A stretch of 64,000 nucleotides of DNA, taken from Undaria pinnatifida. Its lineage: Eukaryota; Sar; Phaeophyceae; Laminariales; Alariaceae. Positions 1,778 to 62,894 of this stretch are shown piece by piece. A model generated the notes under the pieces. The model saw only the letters and a list, made by a program, of their open reading frames with translations. It was not told the DNA's origin and did not search any database. Where the stretch lies: the NCBI GenBank assembly GCA_012845835.1, contig JABAKD010000023.1, positions 11,316,427 through 11,380,426 of the forward strand, in the 5' to 3' direction. Position 1 is the first letter of the stretch. Every line of letters starts with the position of its first letter. Both the position numbers and the translations under genes were made by a program.

Positions 1778-1934
1778 GGTAGTTGAACATGCTGGGGACG
1801 TACGCCCCTCTTTCCGGCTTGAGCCCCCGAGTGAAGAACGGCATCACGGCCCCGAAGAAGACGGTGGTGAAGAGGATCACCCCTAGGGACGTCGTCACCA
1901 TCACCCCACGGTGGGGGTCCTGTACCTGCACTAC
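1778..1934 (-). CDS. NHE exon 6: final core membrane segment
   Basis: Starts [11 protein letters not shown] and runs [42 protein letters not shown], matching the family's last core helix ('TTTLVIVLFTTLVFGG'). Three in-phase AGs lie at the acceptor (ATGCAG|GTAGTGCAG|GTACAG|GAC), so two, five or no extra residues are possible. A GTGAGAT donor at 1,772-1,777 would end it after one base of the next codon; otherwise it reads on about 11 codons to a TAA near 1,740. The donor is preferred because it is also kept in the decayed copy at 1,505-1,600. Confidence 0.85.

Positions 1935-62894: not shown

Follow-up and report, generated by a model that had tools for sequence, protein, structure and literature searches.

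A putative Na+(K+)/H+ exchanger gene spread over more than 112 kb in Undaria pinnatifida, with decayed partial exon copies beside its exons

Exons, introns and extent of the gene

The window, a stretch of 64,000 nucleotides from Undaria pinnatifida, corresponds to positions 11,316,427-11,380,426 of contig C30 in an assembly of 511,146,479 bases and 68 contigs. Flanks of 90 kb on its lower side and 110 kb on its upper side bring the sequence read to 264 kb. The initial annotation placed six minus-strand exons of a sodium/proton exchanger in the window (E1-E6), and their edges are borne out by an AG before and a GT after each of the six. Probes for the missing front half of the gene located three further exons (N1-N3) upstream of E1, beyond the window edge in its own assembly. 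In the order of the gene, with N1-N3 in extended window coordinates that lie outside the window, the exons are:

114397-114500, minus strand: exon N3, 104 nt
113225-113353, minus strand: exon N2, 129 nt
64566-64682, minus strand: exon N1, 117 nt
62814-62894, minus strand: exon E1, 81 nt, preceded by CAG and followed by GTAAGA, phase 0 in and out
44357-44604, minus strand: exon E2, 248 nt, with splice borders and open frame
22603-22702, minus strand: exon E3, 100 nt, with splice borders and open frame
21598-21746, minus strand: exon E4, 149 nt, with splice borders and open frame
2711-2840, minus strand: exon E5, 130 nt, with splice borders and open frame, containing GLVRGA
1778-1934, minus strand: exon E6, 157 nt, with splice borders and open frame, the 3'-most exon found

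A recount reproduces the coding content first given for E1-E6, 865 nt within 61,117 bp (1.4% coding). The family order and matching splice phases reported for these exons also stand, and the joined frame runs through 288 codons with no stop, whereas the other two frames contain many. N1, N2 and N3 are bordered by AG and GT as well, in phases compatible with E1-E6; the canonical dinucleotides of GT-AG introns are thus present at all nine exons. A T-rich tract, judged by eye, accompanies about five of the nine acceptors. The six window exons are richer in GC (58%, and 76% at third codon positions) than the remainder of the window (49%). These values, like the assembly size and the presence of contigs that look bacterial, are in keeping with a brown alga. 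The nine exons, N3 to E6, span 112,723 bp and supply 1,215 coding nt, with an open frame of 404 codons. The original estimate of at least 61 kb is therefore true as a minimum but, with three exons added upstream, a clear underestimate.

From 5' to 3', the introns measure 1,043, 48,542, 1,671, 18,209, 21,654, 856, 18,757 and 776 bp, so that half of them (four of eight) exceed 18 kb. The large introns are not scaffold gaps, because the 264 kb read contains no N. Those within the window are:

44605-62813, minus strand: intron E1-E2, 18,209 bp, containing an antisense LINE
22703-44356, minus strand: intron E2-E3, 21,654 bp, containing a PIF1-type helicase frame and 1.85 kb of GTA-type arrays
2841-21597, minus strand: intron E4-E5, 18,757 bp, containing Copia-like remains

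The gene should continue below E6, since this exon terminates inside a codon at a GT. The adjoining 1,777 bp, which may be intron or the 3' end, was inspected for reading frames, and probes were run over the 90 kb below. At the other end, sequence probes and a motif-plus-donor filter located no convincing exon for the first transmembrane segment in the 59.5 kb above N3. Given that this exon was not found and that the end of the frame was not reached, the gene should be larger still. One transmembrane-like frame (81110-81187, extended coordinates) was considered and dropped.

Encoded protein and family

The initial annotation proposed the Pfam Na_H_Exchanger model as a check on the joined peptide, and the six-exon product returns the single match to be hoped for (PF00999; residues 5-270 of 288, profile positions 134-372 of 375, E 3e-29). 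With all nine exons, the 404-aa product matches PF00999 in one stretch covering profile positions 25-372 of 375 (E 1.1e-44) and scores 153.3 bits against a curated cut-off of 26.2. The narrower NCBIfam equivalog TIGR00840 (b_cpa1) gives 180.9 bits, below its cut-off of 251.25, for this query that lacks both ends of the protein.

Among solved structures, a phmmer search of the PDB pairs the six-exon peptide with NHE6 and NHE9 at E values of 6e-23 to 1e-21; like the Pfam match, this is well outside what chance would give. For the nine-exon protein, the E values of NHE6 and NHE9 improve to about 4e-40; the top row, at 2.4e-40, is named only 'Sodium/hydrogen exchanger'. In bits, NHE6/NHE9 chains stand at 137-142, NHE3 at 95 and NHE1 at 68-71 (long chains), a ranking by score and not by tree. 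Local alignment to three reference sequences places AtNHX1 ahead (32% identity over 397 columns, 191 bits), followed by NHE8 (158) and NHE6 (150). Scans of genome contigs and viral contigs, which reach close relatives only, yielded no relative of the six-exon peptide.

The motifs FGEGVLNDA and VRGA are retained, and with them the ND and RGA motifs, which we take to be functional in exchangers. Some features are particular to this gene: N1 reads SAADEVATL where relatives have SATDPV or AATDSV, and E2 is about 14 residues longer than its counterpart in AtNHX1. The protein resembles CPA1 exchangers (PF00999, including plant NHX and animal NHE6/NHE9) in its continuous family match, with NHE6 and NHE9 as its best solved relatives. 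Judged by these matches, the predicted product is a CPA1-type exchanger that resembles the NHX/NHE6-9 kind, and membership of that clade is not claimed.

One gene or several pieces

All nine exons lie on one strand, in family order and with matching phases. Because this arrangement is joined to one continuous Pfam match, a single gene is the best reading, and the earlier view that the exons form one gene and not scattered pseudogene bits appears sound on the sequence. Specifically, the minus strand of the locus very probably carries a single CPA1-type Na+(K+)/H+ exchanger gene that looks functional and is nearest to the plant NHX / animal NHE6-9 endomembrane group. Such a gene would yield a pre-mRNA exceeding 113 kb, to be spliced by the ordinary spliceosome, and its product would act as an endomembrane cation/proton exchanger.

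Very long introns, one of them 48.5 kb, and a first transmembrane exon that was not found are also what might be expected if the nine exons were two or more gene pieces, left by a rearranged split or by pseudogene decay and not spliced together any more. The gene may have been split by rearrangement inside the 48.5-kb intron. Such a fragmented locus is nonetheless improbable, as its 404-codon frame is intact, its borders are canonical at nine of nine exons, and the FGEGVLNDA and VRGA motifs are kept. Nor does the locus bear the marks of a pseudogene (intron loss, stops, frameshifts), with 404 codons open over nine exons. Within the 264 kb, no exon has a second copy apart from short decayed fragments, which likewise speaks against separate pieces and for the single gene.

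Other exchangers in the assembly

An intact intronless exchanger elsewhere, with the window exons unexpressed, had been named at the outset as a rival to this gene. A PF00999 family search of the assembly, in which 32 candidates were scored and 14 matches listed, contains only two intact, near-full-length, single-frame matches. Both lie on small contigs (C50, 200 kb; C47, 89 kb) whose neighbouring frames look bacterial by eye, and they are unlikely to be copies of the window gene. The remaining 12 matches are exon-like and fall on C35, C61, C38, C13, C26 and C56.

The window locus is absent from the 14 matches, from which it follows that the list favours genes with long exons. At the five loci with at least two matches, the outermost matches are 1.8-11.7 kb apart in this biased list. 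The C35 paralogue fits its domain within about 9.2 kb, an extent taken from matches to NHE6 that begin close to the first transmembrane region and stop close to where the domain ends. The window gene looks like an outlier in size among its relatives.

Mobile elements and repeats in the introns

Everything outside the six exons was initially described as intron content, a description that overlooks mobile-element coding remnants and diverged exon copies. The remnants were recognised by Pfam scans of 8 of the 112 window frames of at least 120 aa, 5 of the 12 frames of at least 200 aa in the 48.5-kb intron, and 3 frames above N3:

51875-55627, plus strand, antisense to the gene: LINE (non-LTR retrotransposon) with endonuclease-like and reverse transcriptase frames
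12547-14873, plus strand, antisense to the gene: Copia-like retrotransposon remains, recognised by Pfam
32440-33273, plus strand, antisense to the gene: PIF1-type helicase frame (PIF1, 65 bits)
94,803-95,426 (extended coordinates), antisense to the gene: integrase zinc finger, recognised by Pfam, in the 48.5-kb intron

The LINE scores 121 bits for RVT_1, above the cut-off, and 23.6 bits for Exo_endo_phos, just below the cut-off of 24.5. In the Copia-like remains, SH3_retrovirus (30.9 bits) lies above its cut-off and gag_pre-integrs (20.1 bits) below its cut-off of 28.4. The PIF1-type frame is probably part of a Helitron. All four Pfam-recognised remnants run antisense to the gene, a biased tally in that the chosen frames are mostly on the plus strand (8 of 8 in the window set, 4 of 8 in the set outside it).

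No nested host gene was seen in the introns among the frames scanned with Pfam, and neither Rfam families at gathering scores nor tRNA genes were detected. The LINE frame has no relative in viral contigs in a scan that reaches close relatives only, and one 501-bp piece of the window has no match in phage records.

Direct repeats are numerous in the window. GTA-type trinucleotide arrays upstream of E3 (22736-24114 and 24542-25010) make up 1.85 kb of the adjoining 2.3 kb and give rise to a long open frame, rich in threonine, that continues into E3. A 12-bp tandem array of 37 copies with 94% matches (63565-64000, reaching the window end) sits inside the N1-E1 intron, whose flanking exons are merely 1.7 kb apart. 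A family of dispersed repeats, each about 330-400 bp long, has at least seven copies in the window (25224-26290, 41631-42641, 57437-59090), a mean column identity of 69% and a G+C-rich tail, and is probably a non-autonomous mobile element. An inverted pair of about 900 bp (28394-29271 and 48809-49719), 81% identical, 20 kb apart and in different introns, could fold or promote back-splicing.

Diverged partial exon copies

The 264 kb were searched at E<=0.01 with each of the nine exons together with 40 nt of flanking sequence. Seven non-self matches arise from five of the exons (one each from N2, N1 and E1, two each from E4 and E6). Every one of the seven lies on the strand of the gene, in the intron or 3' flank adjoining its source exon; the nearest, from E1, is 170 bp away and the farthest, from E4, 18 kb. 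E values are 6e-5 or lower for six of the seven and 0.001 for the second E4 copy; in a reversed-sequence null, the only match at E<=0.01 has 0.002 and falls within repeat sequence flanking E3, and nothing lies below 0.001. The copies placed in the window, together with weaker likenesses, are:

63064-63136, minus strand: partial E1 copy of 73 nt with 78% identity, lying some 170 nt upstream of its source exon
3489-3569, minus strand: copy of the 3' half of E4, 81 nt, 80% identical, running 6 nt beyond the exon end
3922-4020, minus strand: second E4 copy, weaker than the first, covering the exon end and the intron after it, 72-76% identical, E 6e-6 to 0.001
1502-1576, minus strand: copy of the E6 end, 75 nt, 79% identical, running 18 nt beyond the donor
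2075-2128, minus strand: weak likeness to the E6 start and its acceptor side, 72% identical, E 0.007, not recovered at E<=0.01 in the exon-plus-flank search
2218-2250, minus strand: weak likeness to the E6 start, 82% identical over 34 columns, E 0.007, not recovered at E<=0.01 in the exon-plus-flank search
about 64490-64516 (extended coordinates): weak copy of the N1 end, from inspection by eye and targeted alignment only
44653-44683: weak 31-nt likeness to E1 just above E2, E 0.004, possibly due to chance

The copies take in 50 of 129 exonic nt in N2, 40 of 117 in N1, 73 of 81 in E1, 75 and 17 of 149 in E4, and 57 and 54 of 157 in E6. Three of the seven clearly pass a splice border (N1 by 40 nt, the second E4 copy by 29, the first E6 copy by 18), the N2 and first E4 copies pass it by 4-6 nt, and the E1 and second E6 copies do not. 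The E1 match stops at the exon, although a loose gapped alignment can be extended further to the intron side. In the three copies for which differences were counted by codon position, these fall across the codon positions at 12 of 66, 11 of 66 and 17 of 68 sites, a spread that fits neutral decay and makes the copies look decaying and not selected.

Alternative or mutually exclusive exons, with long introns that serve alternative splicing, might be read into the copies of E1, E4 and E6, which sit beside their source exons and are stop-free over their short length. This is very improbable given that all seven copies are partial, that the fullest of them, from E1, has no GT where the E1 donor would be, and that differences occur at all codon positions. 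Reverse-transcribed mRNA or dispersed gene copies, as opposed to local DNA duplication, are an extremely improbable source, even though mobile elements with reverse transcriptase occupy the same introns and the matches of the E1 and second E6 copies are confined to the exon. The matches that run past a splice border (three of seven, and by 4-6 nt in the N2 and first E4 copies) favour an origin from DNA over one from mRNA, as does the position of all seven beside the source exon on the same strand, though up to 18 kb away. The exon copies look like decayed tandem duplications and not alternative exons. When copies on the same strand within the 264 kb are counted at E<=0.001, they turn up for five of the nine exons and for 185 of 450 randomly chosen stretches of exon size; exons are thus not clearly copied above random stretches, and the copies carry no exon-specific meaning.

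Local duplication and intron growth

In seven of eight 30-kb tiles, local copies on the same strand exceed those on the opposite strand at least 4.7-fold, and in the eighth the two are equal. Around the C35 paralogue, on another contig, local copies amount to 19% on the same strand against 2.7% on the opposite strand. When seven exons of this paralogue were used as queries, the front of one of them proved to have two diverged copies in the preceding intron:

L030:3127-3168 (contig C35): copy of the exon front
L030:3261-3297 (contig C35): copy of the exon front

These copies indicate that the duplication habit is not confined to the window locus. On the simplest reading, local tandem duplication is a general habit that includes exons incidentally and, alongside mobile elements, makes introns longer. 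The introns would have grown by mobile-element insertions and repeated local tandem duplications, some of which would cross exon-intron borders and leave decaying partial exon copies beside their source exons.

A bolder proposal, which we regard as doubtful, is a genome with unusually active short head-to-tail duplication that copies exon edges and splice sites, grows introns to tens of kilobases and keeps seeding cryptic exons. If it were true, the time of growth could be read from the decayed exon copies for each intron separately; the compact paralogue bears the same marks. In any case, the decayed copies offer a test of how introns grow.

Comparison with published genes

The available text of published brown algal reports provides a scale for these introns. 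In Saccharina, the mean intron is given as 1,057 bp (PMC4421812) or 1,816 bp (PMC11836290), and the mean gene length as 9,587 bp (PMC4421812) or 12,489 bp (PMC11836290). The median intron of Ectocarpus autosomes is given as 524 bp. Ectocarpus carries a genic insertion in 81% of its genes (PMC12477816). As far as these accounts extend, Saccharina and Ectocarpus genes have introns with mobile-element remains, as the window gene does, but half of its introns (four of eight) exceed 18 kb where the values cited range from 524 to 1,816 bp. Against the Saccharina intron and gene means quoted in those accounts, the window gene is an outlier.

Its size relative to its own paralogue and its exon fragments make the window gene a good example of its kind. 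Should the gene be transcribed as a single unit, its precursor would exceed 113 kb although the transporter is of ordinary size. Genes of this kind may be split or missed by automatic annotation, and the family search of the assembly did omit the window locus.

Duplication of exons within a gene also has a precedent in brown algae. In ROCO genes, according to the accessible part of one report, LRR exons are tandemly duplicated within the gene (PMC11378527). To the extent described there, both cases involve exon-containing DNA copied inside one gene, and they differ in outcome: the LRR exons of ROCO genes are kept and spliced, whereas the copies in the window gene are incomplete and decayed and show no sign of being used. 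Giant introns made of mobile elements and duplications are an already known kind of structure and not a new system.
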